A stretch of DNA of 64,000 nt from NCBI RefSeq assembly GCF_003390325.1, contig NZ_QUOK01000013.1, forward strand, positions 1-64,000, read 5' to 3'. Position numbers and translations under genes: made by a program. Under the pieces are notes generated by a model that made no database searches, was not told the origin of the DNA, and saw only the letters and a program-made list of their open reading frames with translations. Positions 5,249 to 20,169 of this stretch are shown one piece after another. How positions within the stretch are numbered: the stretch's first letter is position 1; each line of letters starts with the position of its first letter. Source of the stretch: Rhodohalobacter sp. SW132 (lineage in GTDB: Bacteria > Bacteroidota > Rhodothermia > Balneolales > Balneolaceae).

Positions 5249-6481
5249 CTAGCTAAACAAACTATCCATTTTAGAATCAAGACCTTCTGTATCAAACTTT
5301 TTCAAATACCGCTCAGTTACTTTAATATTTTTGTGCCCTAAGGCTTTTGATATATCGTAAATACTCCAGCCTTGGGTCCTTGCAAGATCAGCAAAAGAAT
5401 GTCGGGCCATATGAAACGATATTTTTGTTTGTATCTCGGCAAGAGAAGCTATCTTCTTTAAATACTTATTGATGAGTGCATTTTTAGAGGAAATATTACC
5501 GTGAAGAACCATAGTATCAGAGAGGTCTTTTTTGATATCTAAGACAGGAAATAAGAAACCATAAGGATTGTCTTTTGGGTATTGATCCAAAATCTTCAAG
5601 GCCTGGGGCATCAACTTAATATTCTTAGTAGTACCGGTCTTACTCATTTTATAAACAAGACGACCGTCTTTTATGTTGTCAATTTTCATTTTTGCAATAT
5701 CACTAAACCTAATTCCTGCTGAATAGAACGAAAAAAGAAAATAATTTCGAGTATTGCATAACAACGAACCCTTCTCAAGTTCGAGATTTTCGATCTTCTG
5801 AATTTCTTCAAGACTTAGTTTCTTATTCGAATCTGAGTATCCTTTTGCGGGTGAAAACTTAAAAAAAGGATTCTTTTCTTGAGGAAATTCATCCTCGTCA
5901 ATTGCCTTATAAAGTATTGCCCTAATTACATTAAAATTTGATTTAACTGTATTTGGAGAGTTTTTATACTCCTGAATAAGATGAGTTTCATATTCCCGAA
6001 GAAAACCTACTGTTAATTGATCATATGGGAGTTTGTTATTGCAATACGCCTTTAACTTTTTAAAAACAGATTTATATCGCCGGTGAGTAAAAAATTTCTG
6101 TCTCTTCTCTAAATTCTCTATTGTCTTATCAGAAAAAGCAAAAAAATTGCCGGAAACCTCATTCTCTTGATTAGTTGGTTGGTGATATTCATTGTATGAC
6201 TTTTTTATGATCAAACTTGTACATGGCTGCCCTTTCGTTTTTAACCGTGTTATAATACTTTGAAGGATAGAGAGTTTCTGTTGAATAAGATTGTTCAGGT
6301 CATCTTCTCTGGGATGACTTTTTCTTACGTTTGACTTATTATCGTTCCAATGTGATTCCGAAATAGATTCCTTTATAGAGATATATTTTGTTGATCGGGA
6401 ATCTGAGATTCTCAAATAAATTGGGCAGTGTCCATTTTTATTTTTTTTATGTTTGGCAAGTGTTGCAGAGATTTGAGCCAT
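5249..6481 (-). CDS. Tyrosine-type site-specific integrase
   Basis: A 410-residue phage-type integrase. The N-terminal arm-binding region covers about 1-100, the SAM-like core-binding domain about 115-210 and the catalytic domain about 220-405. Visible catalytic residues are Arg258 (SAGIRFSDI), His357 and Arg360 (HMARHSF), His383 (LGHKN) and the nucleophile Tyr392 (TERYLKKF). It catalyses integration and excision of the element through a covalent phosphotyrosyl intermediate. Length and layout match integrases of Bacteroidota islands. It lies at the edge between AT-rich element DNA and chromosomal genes. Repeats of GGTAAAGG directly upstream of its start may be arm-type binding sites. Confidence 0.95.
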   Translation of the reverse strand: MAQISATLAKHKKNKNGHCPIYLRISDSRSTKYISIKESISESHWNDNKSNVRKSHPREDDLNNLIQQKLSILQSIITRLKTKGQPCTSLIIKKSYNEYHQPTNQENEVSGNFFAFSDKTIENLEKRQKFFTHRRYKSVFKKLKAYCNNKLPYDQLTVGFLREYETHLIQEYKNSPNTVKSNFNVIRAILYKAIDEDEFPQEKNPFFKFSPAKGYSDSNKKLSLEEIQKIENLELEKGSLLCNTRNYFLFSFYSAGIRFSDIAKMKIDNIKDGRLVYKMSKTGTTKNIKLMPQALKILDQYPKDNPYGFLFPVLDIKKDLSDTMVLHGNISSKNALINKYLKKIASLAEIQTKISFHMARHSFADLARTQGWSIYDISKALGHKNIKVTERYLKKFDTEGLDSKMDSLFS

Positions 6482-7139: not shown

Positions 7140-9905
7140 TTACTGATGAATTTGAATGGATTCCAGCTCATGTACAAAGGGATGTTGTGCGCCCAGTGTT
7201 GAGTATCCAAGATTGAGTCCTCCAGCAATGGTTTCCTGAGCGCTATTGATTAAGCCAGAGTCGAGTTCTGTGCGTGCTTTCCACAGCCGGATACGCACTG
7301 CGTCGCGGTTTTCTTTGAGTTGGTCTTCAAGTACAGCAGGATGCTCCTTTGCCGAGTCCAGGATGGAGAGGGCGTGCTCAAAGCCATCCATGCGATCCAT
7401 ATCGTCGGTATTTTTGGCAGATACGGTGGCATCAGCAGCTTCCAGAAGCGCCATCGCAACGTTCGGCGCATCGAAATCAGCGGCCATTTGCCTCCCCGCT
7501 GCAAACACTTCTCGCGCCTCTTCCTCATCTCCTGCACGATAGAGGGTAACCGCATGCAACGCTGCGTAATAGACCTTTAAGTGTGTCCGTGATTCCAGGC
7601 GCCGGGCCTCTCCGAACTGTGTGGCGGCTTTTTCGTACTCACCCCGGTGCAGAGCCAACTCGCCGTGCAACCAATGAGTTTTGGCAAGCCTCTCGTCTAA
7701 TAACTGTACCGGAGTCATTACTGCAAGTGCTGCTTCACTCTCTTCGAGCTGTCCCAGATCGAAGGCATTGACCGCCCGTGAAACTTCATCGAATGACCAG
7801 ATTTCTGTACTGTCACGCTCCATTTTGATCGAGTTGTTCTCGGCAAACAGGATTTCAGCAGCCGAAAATTCACCGAAAAGTGCGCGGCGCAGTGCAGCCA
7901 TGACCAGTATCCTTTGCCTCATGCGTGTGTTCACCTGTGGATATTCGGCGATCAGTTGTTCTGTTTCGGCATATCCCAGTACGTTTTTACGCTGGCCGAC
8001 AAGAGCTGCCGCCAGCTCAAGACGCGCGGTGACGATCCTGCGATGAGTGGCCGGTACACGTTCTTCCAGAATTGTAATGGCTTGTCGTGTTGCGTTTTCG
8101 GCATCTCGAAAGTGGCCTAAAACTATAGCATTACGCGCCCTTGCAATCAGTGCGTCTGCCAGTAACATCGACTCGCCTGGTGCACGTTCGGTGGCTATCA
8201 CCAGTGTTTGCCACACTTTGTCGAGGTCCCAGCCACGGTCCCACTTCGCTGTCGCCCATTCCGTAACCAGGCGAAGATCAGCGTTGGCTGCTTGCGCGGG
8301 ATCAACCGGAGGACCGCCAAGTTCGGCATCTCCTAACCGCTCCGCGTGCTCGCTCATCATCAACTGGTTGTACAGACCAACCAGAACGCCTGCAAGGTCT
8401 TCTCGAAGCGGGTCTCCCGGTGGAAGTTCACGAAGCCGCGCGACACCATGGTCGAGAAACTCGCGTGTGGTTGCAACTGCCTCCCGGGGATCTTCCGGGT
8501 TAACGAAGAGCTCAATCAGTTGATCTTTGATGTTCGTAGCACGTTCAGCCGCAAGCCGGGTTTGATGCGCCTGCCACATTGTTACTGTCATCCCCCCGAT
8601 CAGCAAAAACACAATGGTTGCCGCTGCCGCCACCCCCAAGCGGTTTCGGCGAACAAACTTGCTTGTACGGTATCGAAGTGTAGGAGCTCGCGCTGCAACC
8701 GGTTTGCCTTTCCGATGATTTTCAAGATCTTCGGTAAGAGCCAGTGCCGACCGGTATCGATGTTCGGGCTCTTTCCTCAAGGCCATTAATACAATTTGAT
8801 CCAGATCCCCAGTAAGTTTGCGTTTGAGACTATCTGTATTACTGTCTCGTTTTTCAGCATTTGTCTGAGGATCGAATGTTTTTTCTTTTACATGATCAGG
8901 AGCAGGCAAAGACTTTCCTGACACGGCATCGCCAAGCCGAAGAGGTACCGTTTCACAAACAATGCGTTCAATTTCCAGCATGGAGGATGTTTCTAACCGA
9001 TAGGGCCGGCGGCCTGTAAGCAGCAGGTAGAGCAGCACACCCAGCGAATAGATGTCCGAAGCCGTGGTTACCGGTTCTCCGCGTATTTGTTCGGGTGCGG
9101 CAAACTCCGGGGTCACTATTTTTACACCTGTTCGTGTTTGATAATCCATTGCTCTGGCTTGATCCGGTTCCAATAGTTTTGCAATACCGAAATCAACCAG
9201 TTTTATTTTACCCTCCTCAGTTACAAGTACATTGGCCGGTTTCAGGTCTCGATGAACAATCAGCTTTTGATGGGCATGATGCACAGCTACGCACACGGTT
9301 TTAAAAAGGCGGAGCCGTTCTTCAATAGCCAGTTTATGCTTGTCGCAGTACACATCAATGGGTTCCCCTTTTATGTGCTCCATCACAAAATAAGGCCGTC
9401 CGTCAGAGTGAACACCGCCATCATAAAGCCGGGCAATATTGGGGTGTTCCAGCGAAGCGAGGATTTGTCCTTCATGCCGGAATCTACTTAACACATCTGG
9501 AGACGCCATACCGCTTCGAACAAGTTTTAAAGCAACCTGTTTTTCGTAAGGGGCATCGGTTTTTTCCGCCAGCCATACACTGCCCATACCTCCCCGGCCT
9601 ATCTGCTTGAGTAATTTGTAGGATCCGATAATCGTACCGGGTTTCTCAAAAACTTTTTCTGCAGATTGGGCCACCTCATCAATCAGGCCCGGCACAAGCG
9701 GGGCAGCAAATGTCTCAGCAGTATCGCCCAGGATCTGTTCTGCTTGATCATGCACCTGAAGAAGTTTTTCTACATGACTTATCAGATCGGTATCACTACC
9801 GCACTGTTGCTTCAAAAATGAATCTCTTTCTTCAGAAGGCACTTCCAGGACATCTTTGAAAAGAGTATCGATTTGCTGCCAGCGTTGTTGAGACAAGTCA
9901 TTCAT
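7140..9905 (-). CDS. Membrane Ser/Thr protein kinase with helical C-terminal repeats
   Basis: A 921-residue Hanks-type kinase. Residues 1-90 are a conserved N-terminal module (RWQQIDTLFKDVLEVP). The kinase domain is about 95-400: glycine loop GRGGMGSV at 103-110, Lys127, HRD 218-220 and DFG 238-240, all intact. One membrane helix spans about 424-444. The extracytoplasmic part (450-921) is made of helix pairs resembling degenerate TPRs. It should phosphorylate cytoplasmic proteins in response to something sensed outside or through protein contacts. An ECF-type sigma gene and a truncated copy of its N-terminal module lie upstream on the same strand; this pairing of sigma factor and TPR-kinase recurs in several phyla and suggests one signalling pathway. 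Confidence 0.93.
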   Translation of the reverse strand: MNDLSQQRWQQIDTLFKDVLEVPSEERDSFLKQQCGSDTDLISHVEKLLQVHDQAEQILGDTAETFAAPLVPGLIDEVAQSAEKVFEKPGTIIGSYKLLKQIGRGGMGSVWLAEKTDAPYEKQVALKLVRSGMASPDVLSRFRHEGQILASLEHPNIARLYDGGVHSDGRPYFVMEHIKGEPIDVYCDKHKLAIEERLRLFKTVCVAVHHAHQKLIVHRDLKPANVLVTEEGKIKLVDFGIAKLLEPDQARAMDYQTRTGVKIVTPEFAAPEQIRGEPVTTASDIYSLGVLLYLLLTGRRPYRLETSSMLEIERIVCETVPLRLGDAVSGKSLPAPDHVKEKTFDPQTNAEKRDSNTDSLKRKLTGDLDQIVLMALRKEPEHRYRSALALTEDLENHRKGKPVAARAPTLRYRTSKFVRRNRLGVAAAATIVFLLIGGMTVTMWQAHQTRLAAERATNIKDQLIELFVNPEDPREAVATTREFLDHGVARLRELPPGDPLREDLAGVLVGLYNQLMMSEHAERLGDAELGGPPVDPAQAANADLRLVTEWATAKWDRGWDLDKVWQTLVIATERAPGESMLLADALIARARNAIVLGHFRDAENATRQAITILEERVPATHRRIVTARLELAAALVGQRKNVLGYAETEQLIAEYPQVNTRMRQRILVMAALRRALFGEFSAAEILFAENNSIKMERDSTEIWSFDEVSRAVNAFDLGQLEESEAALAVMTPVQLLDERLAKTHWLHGELALHRGEYEKAATQFGEARRLESRTHLKVYYAALHAVTLYRAGDEEEAREVFAAGRQMAADFDAPNVAMALLEAADATVSAKNTDDMDRMDGFEHALSILDSAKEHPAVLEDQLKENRDAVRIRLWKARTELDSGLINSAQETIAGGLNLGYSTLGAQHPFVHELESIQIHQ

Positions 9906-12182: not shown

Positions 12183-13196
12183 ATGAAAATAATCGCAGCC
12201 TGTCTTTTACTATGTATGACTGTGCAATCACTACATGCACAGGAGCGACTGCCCATTATCGATATGCACCTGCACGCCATGGCAGCCGATGCCCAGGGAC
12301 CGCCGCCGCTGGCGATGTGCACTCCGATGGAGTTTCCGGCCTGGGATCAGAACCAGCCCTATGGAGAGGCGTTCATTTCCATGCAAAAATCGCCTCAATG
12401 CCCCGACCCGGTCTGGTCACCTGAAACGGACGAAGAGATTATGAATCAGACCCTTGAAGTGATGGAGCGACTGAATATTGTAGGTGTGCTGAGCGGGACC
12501 GAGCCGGATCGTATTGCAACCTGGATGGCGGAAGCACCTGACCGCTTCATTCCCGGTTTCGTTTTAGAGTTTAACGAAACGGGCGCCGTTTTCCCTGCAG
12601 ATTCCCTGCGCAGCCTTCATTCGGAAGGCCGGCTTTCCGTGCTTGGGGAAGTTATAAACCAATATGCAGGGATCACCCCGGACGATGAGCGGATGGAACC
12701 CTACTGGGCGCTTGCCGAAGAGCTGGACATACCCGTTGGTATTCACGTTGGTACGGGCCCGCCGGGAGTCATCTATCTGGGAGCCGAAGGTTACCGCGCC
12801 CGGTACCACAGCCCGCTCATGATGGAAGAGGTTCTGGTACGGCATCCCAACCTCCGCGTCTATCTTGCGCATGCAGGCTACCCGATGCTTGATGATCTGC
12901 TTGCCGTGCTTTACGCACATCCACAGGTACATGTGGACATTGGCATTATCGTCTATTCACAACCGCGGGCAGCCTTCTACCGCTATCTTCGCGGAATTGT
13001 GGAAGCCGGTTTTGGAAGCCGGGTCATGTTCGGATCGGATCAGATGGTATGGCCTGGGGTGATCGAACGGGCTGTTGAAGTAATCATGGAGGCACCCTTT
13101 CTCAGTGAAGAGCAGAAGCGCGATATCTTCTACAACAACGCAGCGCGGTTTCTGCGGCTGAGTGAGGAGGAAATTGCGCGGCATCATGGGATGTGA
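12183..13196 (+). CDS. Secreted amidohydrolase (Amidohydro_2 type), paralogue 1
   Basis: A 337-residue TIM-barrel metal hydrolase with a signal peptide (cleavage near SLHA-QE, residue 19). Metal ligands expected for the family are present: HxH at His29/His31 (IDMHLHA), His188 (GIHVG), His230 (LAHAG) and Asp286 (FGSDQM). Family members hydrolyse or decarboxylate small cyclic or aromatic acids; the substrate here is unknown. The next gene is a tandem paralogue with nearly the same signal peptide and the same C-terminal block (NNAARFLRLS.EEIARHHG). Export places it in the periplasm or outside. A run of related genes follows on the same strand, suggesting one operon. Confidence 0.88.
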   Translation: MKIIAACLLLCMTVQSLHAQERLPIIDMHLHAMAADAQGPPPLAMCTPMEFPAWDQNQPYGEAFISMQKSPQCPDPVWSPETDEEIMNQTLEVMERLNIVGVLSGTEPDRIATWMAEAPDRFIPGFVLEFNETGAVFPADSLRSLHSEGRLSVLGEVINQYAGITPDDERMEPYWALAEELDIPVGIHVGTGPPGVIYLGAEGYRARYHSPLMMEEVLVRHPNLRVYLAHAGYPMLDDLLAVLYAHPQVHVDIGIIVYSQPRAAFYRYLRGIVEAGFGSRVMFGSDQMVWPGVIERAVEVIMEAPFLSEEQKRDIFYNNAARFLRLSEEEIARHHGM

Positions 13197-13244: not shown

Positions 13245-14183
13245 ATGAAGATAATCACAGCCTCACTTTTACTTTTAATGACTGTGCAAAATTTAAATGC
13301 ACAGGATCGCCAGCCTGTCATCGATGTTCACCTTCACGCCTATATCGGACTGCCACCCGGTGAGAGTGCCGGCTGGACCGGCGAACCCGAAGCCCGTGCA
13401 CTTGTCGGAGCAGCGGATGCGGATGAGCATTTTCGGTCCACAATCACCGAGATGGACAAATATAACATTGTACTTGGTATTGTGAGCGGACCGGAAGAGG
13501 CTGTTAGAGACTGGCATGAAAAAGCTCCGGAACGCTTTATAGGCGGGGCTTTTCTGGGCAATGACGGCTTACCCGAACACAGTCCGGATGAGCTAAAAAA
13601 TCTTGTAGATGAAGGCGTGATGGGTGTACTGGGAGAACTCGGTCTTCAGTACCACGGAATCGCTCCAAATGACCCCCGGCTTGATGACTATTACTCAACT
13701 GCCGAAAGTTTGGGGATCCCGGTAGCTCTGCACACCGGCCTGGGGCCACCCGGCGGGCCGCACTCGTTTGCACCTGAATTTCGCACAACCCTCGGCCGCC
13801 CATCACTTTTTGAGCCGGTTCTGGTTCGTCACCCGAACCTGAAAGCATATCTCATGCATTCCGGCTGGCCCTATATCAACGAAACTATCGCGATGATGTA
13901 TATCTACCCGGACCTCTATGCCGATATTGGTGTGCTGGCCTGGGCGCTGCCGAGAGAAGCATTTTATGATGCACTACAAACCCTGATAAATGCCGGATTC
14001 AGTGAGAGGCTGCTGTTTGGAACCGATCAGATGCTTTGGCCCGGAGCGATAGGGCTGGCCATAGAAACGGTGGAGAACGTTCCCTTTCTGACCGATCAGC
14101 AGAAGCGTGACATCCTATACAACAACGCAGCACGGTTTCTGCGGCTCAGTGACGAGGAGATTGCCCGGCATCATGGAGACTAA
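13245..14183 (+). CDS. Secreted amidohydrolase (Amidohydro_2 type), paralogue 2
   Basis: A 312-residue paralogue of the preceding gene, 48 bp downstream. Signal peptide MKIITASLLLLMTVQNLNA, then the HxH motif His29/His31 (IDVHLHA), His163 (ALHTG), His205 (LMHSG) and Asp261 (FGTDQM). The metal site is therefore complete. It lacks a segment of roughly 40 residues with two Cys and several Pro that paralogue 1 carries after the HxH motif (about residues 35-75), so the active-site entrance probably differs. Tandem duplication with divergence suggests two related substrates. Substrate unknown. Confidence 0.88.
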   Translation: MKIITASLLLLMTVQNLNAQDRQPVIDVHLHAYIGLPPGESAGWTGEPEARALVGAADADEHFRSTITEMDKYNIVLGIVSGPEEAVRDWHEKAPERFIGGAFLGNDGLPEHSPDELKNLVDEGVMGVLGELGLQYHGIAPNDPRLDDYYSTAESLGIPVALHTGLGPPGGPHSFAPEFRTTLGRPSLFEPVLVRHPNLKAYLMHSGWPYINETIAMMYIYPDLYADIGVLAWALPREAFYDALQTLINAGFSERLLFGTDQMLWPGAIGLAIETVENVPFLTDQQKRDILYNNAARFLRLSDEEIARHHGD

Positions 14184-15934: not shown

Positions 15935-17143
15935 ATGGATATGAATATGAAAAAATACATTATTTACCTTTTTTCGATTGTGATTATATCATGCAGCCAG
16001 CCTTCAGATTATGAGCTTGTCATTAACAATGTGGGTTTATTCAATGGCGAAGAAGATGTCGGAATCGTCAATATTGCCATTAATTCCGACACGATTGCGG
16101 CAATCAGTACCGAAGCACTTCTTTCAGACTCAACCATCGATGGTTCCGGAAAATATGTGATTCCCGGAATGGTGAATGCACATGTACATGTAACAACCCT
16201 GGATCAGGTAAAAGAAGGATATCCTTATGGAATATTGGCCAACCTGAATATGCATACCGGCCTGGAAGACAGGGAACTTCGGTGGAAAGAGATCTCCAGG
16301 GATTCTACCGGATACCCGTTGTTTTATGGAGCAGGTCATGCCGCAACCGTTCCCGGGGGCCATCCAAATCAGTTTAGCCCGGATATGGAAACCATCAGTG
16401 ATTCAGTATCCATCAGAGAGTGGGTGGATAACAGGATTGCAGCAGGAGTTGACTACATTAAAATTGTGAGAGATAACCATCCATGGTTTTACAATCCGTC
16501 TCTCCCTACCCTCAGCTATGAGCAGATAGGTGAGCTGATCAGTTATAGCCGTGGCAAAGGTCATAAGGCTGTTGTACATATCGGTAAAGCTGTTGAAATA
16601 GCTGAAATTGCCGGGTACAAACCGGATGGTTTTGTCCATATATGGTCATTTAAGAGAGAATCTGAATTGACAGATCAACAGTGGGATGCGATCCGGGAAT
16701 GTGAATGTTTTATTATTCCAACGGCTCTACTGTCCAAAGGGTCACAAAATAGCTCTGAAGAAGAAACGAGAGATCCTGACGGAAGAATGAGAGAATGGGC
16801 AGAACAGAACTTCCTGTCAGCGGATGAAACCATTGAAGCATTGAGAAAGCTGCATGAAATAGGTGTCATGATCGTGGCCGGAACAGATCCACCAAACAAT
16901 GGAATAAATTATAGTGACGATCTCTTTTCAGAGCTTGAAATGTATCAACAGGCGGGAATGAATAATCTTGAAGTGTTGCGTACTACTACGGGCAATGCAG
17001 CAAAGGCCTTTGATATTGAAGTCGGATTATTGGAGATCGGGAGCAAAGCGAATATGGTACTGCTGAATGGAAACCCGATAGATGATTTAGAAAACCTGAA
17101 AAAGGTTGAACAAGTTTGGAAAAACGGAAAAACAAATCAGTAA
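15935..17143 (+). CDS. Imidazolonepropionase-like amidohydrolase lipoprotein
   Basis: A 402-residue member of the cyclic amidohydrolase superfamily with an N-terminal lipobox (VIISC, Cys20). Metal ligands are present: His83 and His85 (NAHVHV), carboxylated-lysine candidate Lys176 (DYIKIVRD), His215 (VVHIG), His235 (FVHIW) and Asp318 (AGTDPP). The beta-sandwich halves flank the barrel (residues 25-75 and 365-400, with LEIGSKANMVLLNGNP). Relatives cleave C-N bonds in cyclic or peptide-like substrates. As a lipoprotein it probably faces the periplasm. The start could also be Met5 at 15947. It lies 5 bp after the membrane-protein gene. Confidence 0.88.
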   Translation: MDMNMKKYIIYLFSIVIISCSQPSDYELVINNVGLFNGEEDVGIVNIAINSDTIAAISTEALLSDSTIDGSGKYVIPGMVNAHVHVTTLDQVKEGYPYGILANLNMHTGLEDRELRWKEISRDSTGYPLFYGAGHAATVPGGHPNQFSPDMETISDSVSIREWVDNRIAAGVDYIKIVRDNHPWFYNPSLPTLSYEQIGELISYSRGKGHKAVVHIGKAVEIAEIAGYKPDGFVHIWSFKRESELTDQQWDAIRECECFIIPTALLSKGSQNSSEEETRDPDGRMREWAEQNFLSADETIEALRKLHEIGVMIVAGTDPPNNGINYSDDLFSELEMYQQAGMNNLEVLRTTTGNAAKAFDIEVGLLEIGSKANMVLLNGNPIDDLENLKKVEQVWKNGKTNQ

Positions 17144-17329: not shown

Positions 17330-18289
17330 ATGATCGAATCTAACTTTAAATCTCAAACCTTTTTTCACTTATCGGTTGTCTGCTTTTTCATACTCGGGTG
17401 TACTTCAAACGAACAACCTAACCCAAATAACCAAATACCTGTTTTTGATGTAGCCATGCAGGGGGTAAATCCAGCCTGGTTTGAGCGCGCTATGGAGGGT
17501 GTCGACTTTGGGATACATCGGGTTGAAAAATATGGTGAGCTGGTGGCTGACAGTGCCGATCTATTCCACCAAAGTTTCGAGCAGATGGAAATGAATAATA
17601 TCCGATATGGATTGCTCAGTCACGGTACTTACAAGGAGGCATTTATGGAAGAACGCCCGGAGATGTTCTTGCTTTCCTATGAACCGGATTTATCGCTTGA
17701 AGATCACACAGAAGCAGCTCTTGTGTTTGAAAAGAATATCATAAATGGCAGATATGCTGCATTGGGTGAATTGGGGCTGATCTATGAAGGAATACCTCTC
17801 AATACGCCCGATCTGTATCCTTACTATGAGATCGCTCAAAAACATTATATCCCGGTTTTCATTCATACCGGTTTCTCGGGGCCAAATCCGCAACAAATAT
17901 TAAGTCCTGCTTTTAGAATCAGTACTGCTAACCCTTTGCTGCTTGAGGATGTGATCATTGATTTTCCGGATCTGAAGATTGTGATGATGCACATGGGATG
18001 GCCGTATTTCGATGAGGCTCTCTATATATTAGGATCTTATCCAAATCTGTATATGGAAACCTCTGTGGCGATATGGTTATTGGGAGATCAGCTTTTTAAC
18101 CGACTGCTAAGTGAAGCCGTGGCAACGGCAGGAAGTGACAAGATTCTTTTTGGAACACTGCAAATGGCCTGGCCTGAGGTGATCGGCCGGTCTGTTACAA
18201 CGATTCAGGAAGCCGAATACCTTTCCCATGATGATAAACGAGCGATTCTTTGGGAAAATGCAGCAACGTTATTTGAAATTGAGGAATAG
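17330..18289 (+). CDS. Amidohydrolase-fold lipoprotein lacking metal ligands
   Basis: A 319-residue lipoprotein (lipobox ILGC, Cys24) clearly related to the two secreted amidohydrolases upstream: shared blocks LGELGL, YYEIAQKHYIPVFIHTG and MMHMGWPYFDEA, and the same C-terminal helix. Two family ligand sites are changed: HxH is replaced by Ala42/Gln44 (FDVAMQG), and the catalytic Asp by Leu277 (FGTLQM against FGTDQM). His179 and His221 remain. The frame is intact and codon use is normal, so the gene seems maintained. It is best read as a pseudoenzyme, perhaps a binding or regulatory protein. It is separated from the cluster by one dispersed repeat and followed by another. Confidence 0.85.
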   Translation: MIESNFKSQTFFHLSVVCFFILGCTSNEQPNPNNQIPVFDVAMQGVNPAWFERAMEGVDFGIHRVEKYGELVADSADLFHQSFEQMEMNNIRYGLLSHGTYKEAFMEERPEMFLLSYEPDLSLEDHTEAALVFEKNIINGRYAALGELGLIYEGIPLNTPDLYPYYEIAQKHYIPVFIHTGFSGPNPQQILSPAFRISTANPLLLEDVIIDFPDLKIVMMHMGWPYFDEALYILGSYPNLYMETSVAIWLLGDQLFNRLLSEAVATAGSDKILFGTLQMAWPEVIGRSVTTIQEAEYLSHDDKRAILWENAATLFEIEE

Positions 18290-18690: not shown

Positions 18691-20169
18691 GTGATCAAGA
18701 ATGCTTTTATATTGCAAACTATTGTAGATACTCTATATACCTTCTTCCAAAATATTCGGTTTGTCGATGTTTTGGATATCTTTATCATTTCTTCTTTCCT
18801 CTATATCGTACTGAATTTGCTGCGTAAAAGTGCCTCGCGCCGCAGTCTGTTTAGTTTATTTTTGATACTGGTAGTATATGCCCTGGCTCGCCTTACCGGA
18901 ATGTACCTCACGGAACTGCTAATTGAAGGACTTTTTATCATTATCCTGATCGGATTTATTGTTGTATTTCAATCTGATATCCGTCGAATAATCGATAGTG
19001 TCGGCAATTGGAGATTTTTCACCAAATCCGTGCCAGACTCGTCAGATATGGAAACCAGCGTTATTACTGAAGCTGTAGCCAAAATGGCGGATCAGCGGAT
19101 GGGGGCTCTCATCGTTTTAAAAGGCAGAGAAGACTGGGATCGACATGTTCACGGCGGTATTGAGCTCGATGGCAAGATTACGATTCCGCTGTTGCACAGC
19201 ATCTTCAATACCAAAGCCCCCGGTCATGATGGAGCGGTACTGAGCGATGGGCAGCGAATTTTAAAATTTGGTGTCCACCTTCCCCTTTCTACCAACTTAA
19301 ATAAACTTTCGCGCGGTGGTACACGCCACACTGCTGCGCTGGGACTTTCGGAAAAATGTGACGCCCTGGTGGTTGTGGTTTCTGAAGAACGGGGAGCGAT
19401 CAGTATTGCTCTAAATGGGCAACTCAAGGAACTGGAATCTCATAGTGATCTTAAAAAACATCTCGATGATTTTTGGGCCAAACACTATAAAACCGGCTCA
19501 GCCTCAATTAAGCAGTTGGGCGAAAGCCGCAGTATGAAAACCGCACTGGCTGCCGGCAGCCTTGCTTTTTTATTGTGGCTTTCGTTCGCCTATCCTTCGG
19601 AAACGGTGTATCGGACGTATGACATACCCATTGAGTACAGCAATCTTGAATCCTCCGATTATGCGCTCCAGGATACGGTACCTCTTCAGGCCCGGGTAAC
19701 CCTCACCGGATCTGAACAGGCCTTTCGCAACTTCGATCCCTCAGAAGTACTTATTTCATTTGATTTGACATCTGAGGACACTGATGATCTTACACTCGAT
19801 ATTGACAACGACAATCTTAATCTGCCGTCGGACCTGAACTTATATGCAGTGGATCCAGCAACACTAAATCTAAGAAAACGACACTTTGTTGCTACTGAAC
19901 TCCCGGTGAAAGTACCTACAACAGGCACGATTGCCGATGGGTTTGAAGTTGAATCAATCGATCCCTTTCCCACATTCGTAACCGTCTTGGTTGATACCGC
20001 TGCCGCTTCAATCGACTCGGTTTTAACCGAACCTGTGGATCTTAATGAAATTCAGGAACAGGCCATACAACAAATACCGCTCCAGCTGGATGGTAACACC
20101 TCTCGCCTGCCTGAAAACAGCTCCCCTGTTATCAACGTAACTATAAACGTGCGTAAGACTCAATCATAA
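18691..20169 (+). CDS. cdaA: Diadenylate cyclase CdaA fused to a CdaR/YbbR-like region
   Basis: A 492-residue protein starting at GTG. Three membrane helices (about 10-95) precede a DAC domain (about 100-262) that condenses two ATP into c-di-AMP. The DGA motif is at 180-182 (GHDGAVLSDG), and the second motif reads TRHT at 211-214, where most cyclases have TRHR. A fourth hydrophobic helix (about 284-300) leads into a 190-residue extracytoplasmic part of repeated beta segments (VPLQARVTLTGSEQAFRNFD, LPVKVPTTGTIADGFEVESI), typical of YbbR/CdaR. In Firmicutes CdaR is a separate regulator encoded next to cdaA; here both are one chain. The gene is monocistronic. Confidence 0.9.
   Translation: MIKNAFILQTIVDTLYTFFQNIRFVDVLDIFIISSFLYIVLNLLRKSASRRSLFSLFLILVVYALARLTGMYLTELLIEGLFIIILIGFIVVFQSDIRRIIDSVGNWRFFTKSVPDSSDMETSVITEAVAKMADQRMGALIVLKGREDWDRHVHGGIELDGKITIPLLHSIFNTKAPGHDGAVLSDGQRILKFGVHLPLSTNLNKLSRGGTRHTAALGLSEKCDALVVVVSEERGAISIALNGQLKELESHSDLKKHLDDFWAKHYKTGSASIKQLGESRSMKTALAAGSLAFLLWLSFAYPSETVYRTYDIPIEYSNLESSDYALQDTVPLQARVTLTGSEQAFRNFDPSEVLISFDLTSEDTDDLTLDIDNDNLNLPSDLNLYAVDPATLNLRKRHFVATELPVKVPTTGTIADGFEVESIDPFPTFVTVLVDTAAASIDSVLTEPVDLNEIQEQAIQQIPLQLDGNTSRLPENSSPVINVTINVRKTQS

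Follow-up and report, generated by a model that had tools for sequence, protein, structure and literature searches.

What is an amidohydrolase-type lipoprotein kept for once the central residues of its family's metal site have been replaced? The question is raised by a gene at positions 17330-18289, on the forward strand, of the window, as we call the whole stretch of 64,000 nucleotides from Rhodohalobacter sp. SW132 (genome G000, contig 13) that was analysed. In a preliminary description of this DNA, the gene had been read as an amidohydrolase paralogue turned into a pseudoenzyme, retained for binding or signalling.

Metal site and fold of the lipoprotein

The gene is an intact ORF with an ATG start codon and encodes a protein of 319 aa, which its sequence, Pfam, alignments and a structural model place as a metal-less Amidohydro_2 lipoprotein. 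Residues 1-24 (17330-17401, forward strand, as are all codons given below) form the predicted signal peptide of a lipoprotein, with the lipobox FFILGC, whose Cys24 was invariant across the orthologues in the MAFFT alignment. By this N-terminal signal peptide and the lipobox Cys the product is assigned to the bacterial lipoproteins, and its lipidation is predicted. It matched PF04909 (Amidohydro_2) with 101.8 bits against a gathering cut-off of 26.4 (E 7.8e-29). The AlphaFold2 model was a TIM barrel with a mean pLDDT of 77 in which the mouth loops are of low confidence (pLDDT below 50 in residues 55-71 and 183-192), and its best PDB matches were amidohydrolase-family barrels with Z of 20-24; both the score and the fold are thus those of a PF04909 member. 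It must be noted that the Pfam alignment covers profile positions 112-288 only. Since the match begins at position 112, the loss of the HxH motif is invisible to Pfam and was checked by alignment and model.

In the MAFFT alignments, the segment VFDVAMQG of the metal-less protein was aligned to VIDVHLHA of the HxH homologues of the window, and the first strands matched in two AlphaFold2 models, with VFDVAMQ at residues 38-44 of the metal-less protein and VIDVHLH at residues 25-31 of the window paralogue. Therefore, the HxH motif that follows strand 1 in the superfamily is replaced by Ala-Met-Gln (codons 42-44, 17453-17461), with the Ala and the Gln invariant in the nine full orthologues. In strand 8, FGTLQMAWP stands where the HxH relatives have FGSDQMVWP, the catalytic Asp at the strand end being replaced by Leu277 (18158-18160), again in 9/9 orthologues. 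Both His of HxH and the strand-8 Asp are consequently lost from the metal site, while the two His ligands at the ends of strands 5 and 6, His179 in HTG (17864-17866) and His221 in MMHMGWP (17990-17992), are kept and invariant. Glu147 in the GELG of strand 4 (17768-17770) is likewise retained from the ancestor. These results bear out the preliminary description as to the replaced and the retained residues, the intact lipoprotein frame and the preserved fold.

Origin and selection of the metal-less clade

Genome searches yielded nine full orthologues, all in Balneolales genomes (the named records being Balneolaceae and Balneolales MAGs), and, in G336 and G436, additional copies truncated where the contig stops. 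Ala, Gln and Leu occupied positions 42, 44 and 277 in all nine; none of them had regained HxH or the Asp. Given that the strand-8 Asp was present in 37/37 close full-length relatives and HxH in the 34/34 that cover strand 1, chance is excluded as the source of this pattern. When 84,980 species genomes were scanned with two short patterns, which detect near relatives only, the only hits were Balneolales loci of this type and one distant actinobacterial protein. One more orthologue (G294), again in Balneolales, came from sampling 394 genomes across the phylum.

The loss of the metal site had one origin. In a maximum-likelihood tree of 62 proteins the metal-less proteins formed a single clade (support 100/100) whose stem was long, at 1.88 changes per site, and whose inner branches were short, falling outside the group (95/93) that contains all HxH relatives of this type. 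The window holds two of the latter on the forward strand, at 12183-13196 and 13245-14183, both identified by profile and alignment as Amidohydro_2 homologues with HxH, Asp and a Sec-type signal peptide; the second was the one modelled with AlphaFold2 for comparison. Neither was closer to the metal-less protein than other HxH members. As the clade lies outside the whole HxH group, the idea of a recent duplicate of these tandem genes, which the preliminary description had implied, is ruled out by the tree.

The gene is under strong purifying selection. Pairwise dN/dS was 0.06-0.14 among pairs with unsaturated synonymous sites, and the frame was open in all nine full orthologues, in agreement with the earlier reading of a retained derivative free of neutral decay. 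At the replaced sites themselves, the nine copies used three codons for Ala42, two for Gln44 and three for Leu277, and this synonymous variation indicates that the replacements are maintained. Conservation was concentrated at the barrel mouth, defined as the five residues at the C-terminal end of each strand, with strand ends taken from the AlphaFold2 model. There, 34/40 positions were invariant, while at the opposite side this held for 14/38 (Fisher p about 2e-5); the overall count was 148/280 (p about 1e-5). Among the residues that are invariant in the clade but not across the HxH relatives are Q44, H63, R64, H98, K102, E103, E118, D120, H126, E243 and T244, and in the model Q44, H98, E118, D120 and E243 are placed at strand ends. 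Strand 2 ends with His98 (17621-17623), where 35/37 HxH relatives have Gly, and strand 3 with Glu118-Pro-Asp120 (17681-17689), which is unconserved in them. The conservation of the mouth together with the new invariant residues at strand ends indicates a pocket that was rebuilt and not abandoned. One further genome (G433, contig 147) carried a 3' remnant of about the last 41 codons (L088, about 8275-8400), whose close similarity to the intact copies points to a recent deletion.

Horizontal transfer and the cassette copy

The gene has been transferred horizontally within Balneolales. Between G024 and G050 the metal-less proteins were 89.5% identical versus 74.6% for RpoB, while between G024 and G294, which belong to one genus, the values were 72.9% versus 97.6%; synonymous divergence showed the same reversal.

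In G024 the gene sits among small toxin-antitoxin genes on the same strand. The array alongside it (L078, contig 15, 11028-16549) is a cassette array rich in such genes, including HigB/HTH, PemK, YoeB, PIN and ParE. It runs to the contig end, beside the metal-less orthologue. AttC-like repeats of about 120-130 nt lie between the array genes. A model of these repeats gave 30 matches in G024 and 11 in G294, eight of the latter within about 7 kb and beside an integron integrase, and from their position and structure the repeats were taken as attC sites. Directly upstream of the G024 gene is one of these repeats (L078, 16444-16549); directly downstream is an attC-like hairpin unrelated to them (z -3.6). 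In addition, G024 encodes an integron integrase over the cut-off of TIGR02249. Lying between attC-like sites, in the orientation of the array and in a genome with an integrase, the G024 copy is an integron gene cassette. With respect to the window copy, no match to the attC model was found in the window, where an attC of unrelated sequence could escape the model. The literature consulted gave nothing usable on integrons of Balneolaceae.

The upstream leaders of the gene were alike in G024, G448 and G051 from just past the attC end. A palindrome, CGTTTA-N6-TAAACG, directly precedes the start codon in these three (L078, L080 and L084) and, with changes, in G050 (L085), which makes four orthologues in all; it is absent upstream of the gene in the window and in G012. 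From its sequence and position this palindrome is a possible operator. Other repeats were also noted. The intergenic CACGAAGGCACT.. repeat was considered as a general transfer vehicle and rejected, being near the gene in G000, G012 and G433 only. Intergenic CCACGAAGGCACTCAGACTCGAAGG-type repeats, single and inverted, flank the window gene (17266, 18429, 10545 and 10600), lie just downstream of the G012 gene (L079, 13838 and 13902) and flank the G433 remnant (L088, around 8100-8520).

Gene neighbourhood, function and known systems

Just upstream of the metal-less gene lies an Amidohydro_1-type lipoprotein gene of a different amidohydrolase family (15935-17143, forward strand). Upstream of the amidohydrolase cluster, on the reverse strand, are an ECF sigma factor (PF07638, 10836-11402) and a Ser/Thr protein kinase that matched TPR weakly (7140-9905); the same kinase and sigma families (sigma cluster 1) recur close to the G015 orthologue, and the sigma family also close to that of G012. 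Downstream, a single ORF of 492 aa (18691-20169) combines a DAC (diadenylate cyclase) domain with CdaA_N and YbbR and, from these domains, resembles a fusion of CdaA with CdaR. About 5 kb from the cluster there may be an integrated mobile element, as suggested by a weak tyrosine-recombinase match within the ORF at 5249-6481 (reverse strand) and by a ParA-like ORF near the contig start (738-1556, reverse strand). A role in anti-phage defence was rejected, since PADLOC gave no match for the protein or its neighbours, and no RNA families were found in the orthologue loci.

The explanation that we favour, to which we give about an even chance, is that of a membrane-anchored pocket protein free of metal that binds a ligand. 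According to it, this amidohydrolase TIM-barrel lipoprotein, probably facing the periplasm, descends from an ancestor whose metal site was lost a single time, HxH becoming AxQ and Asp becoming Leu, and its mouth was rebuilt with Q44, H98, E118, D120 and E243 around the kept E147, H179 and H221. The pocket would now most likely bind a small ligand without metal-dependent hydrolysis, and a strongly conserved, newly polar mouth fits binding. The protein would work independently of the HxH amidohydrolases, though often in their gene cluster. It spreads by horizontal transfer, on one occasion or more as an integron cassette, and we propose that it does so because its function is useful on its own. 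In this regard, the label of pseudoenzyme used in the preliminary description holds for the ancestral metal chemistry, whose essential residues are lost, and extends no further than that chemistry.

The conserved His, Glu and Asp around the pocket look equally like a new active site. The main alternative, possible if somewhat doubtful, is therefore that the protein is still an enzyme with a non-ancestral chemistry, either metal-independent, using His179, His221 and Glu147 together with H98, E118 and D120, or relying on a rebuilt metal site. The invariance of the three ancestral residues, the new invariant His, Glu and Asp at the ends of strands 2 and 3, and the peak of conservation at the mouth, a feature shared with enzymes, agree with such a role. 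Against it stand the Ala, Gln and Leu at three ancestral positions, including that of the Asp of family-wide catalysis; moreover, neither our searches nor the literature consulted, which gave nothing usable on metal-independent amidohydrolases, turned up a known metal-independent member carrying these replacements.

That the protein is an inactive partner, assembling with HxH amidohydrolases or regulating them as an inactive dihydroorotase does for aspartate transcarbamylase, is improbable, even with the precedent cited in PMC4581275. A close HxH relative was present in 7/11 genomes with the metal-less gene, more than expected (p 8e-5), and in the window, G050 and G436 the two were clustered together; this co-occurrence would fit a partner role or a shared habitat. 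However, the metal-less gene occurs without a close HxH relative in G024, G028 and G294, all of them at least 98% complete, so no HxH partner is needed and an obligate partnership is unlikely. Furthermore, conservation is concentrated in the pocket mouth, and its lipoprotein nature sets the metal-less protein apart from the HxH proteins, whose signal peptides are ordinary ones. Neutral decay after the loss of catalysis, with which the three lost catalytic positions and the G433 remnant would agree, is refuted for the clade by the nine open frames, the dN/dS values, the codon variation at the replaced sites and the gain of the gene by horizontal transfer.

Other altered members of the family were also noted. 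In G015 an HxH-type relative directly downstream (L082, 4870-5667) lacks the signal peptide and the strand-1 HxH, the metal-less gene there being intact, and in L008 and L090 HxH and Asp relatives have Asn in place of the strand-6 His (VEN[TA]GYP), another altered active site.

Returning to the pocket protein, a new job that does without the metal has probably been gained in the old pocket. The more specific picture, of a single-origin, lipid-anchored clade that abandoned its metal centre, rebuilt its mouth with conserved His, Glu and Asp, and became mobile, also as a cassette, for a new metal-free sensing or catalytic function, is offered tentatively, with slightly less than even confidence. 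Metal-less proteins of the amidohydrolase superfamily are already known, best documented as structural partners. What is new is a selected, horizontally mobile, lipid-anchored clade of them with a rebuilt mouth, met once in an integron cassette. Under strong selection, transferred between bacterial families and present also without active relatives, it offers a clear example of a pseudoenzyme that selection keeps for its own function, and it shows an integron cassette that carries a derivative of an enzyme without its catalytic centre. Given a small protein, a relative of solved structure and nine natural variants, ligand screening and structure determination are practical.

With the PF04909/COG2159-type amidohydrolases and decarboxylases, such as 2,6-dihydroxybenzoate decarboxylase (2dvt) and LigY (5vn5), the metal-less protein shares fold and sequence family, the His of strands 5 and 6 and, with its near relatives, the strand-4 GE motif; it differs from them in lacking HxH and the strand-8 Asp, in its lipid anchor and in the residues that strands 2 and 3 contribute to the mouth. 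The best structural match was BB4693 of Bordetella bronchiseptica (3irs, Z 23.7), an uncharacterised TIM-barrel protein for which the literature search found no paper. Compared over the aligned part, BB4693 keeps the His of strand 6 but likewise misses the Asp of strand 8 (FGTAYP), so the loss of the site is not unique within the family; unlike the metal-less protein, it also misses the strand-5 His (IMMTGG), at about 20% identity. LigI, the 2-pyrone-4,6-dicarboxylate lactonase, is an amidohydrolase-fold protein reported as metal-independent that keeps its ligand residues, including the Asp, whereas the metal-less protein does not. Finally, in Pseudomonas an inactive dihydroorotase is needed for the assembly of aspartate transcarbamylase, as cited in PMC4581275, and resembles our protein as a superfamily member kept after the loss of activity. 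The dihydroorotase described there is, however, a subunit of the transcarbamylase holoenzyme, while the metal-less protein occurs without HxH relatives and conserves the mouth of its pocket.
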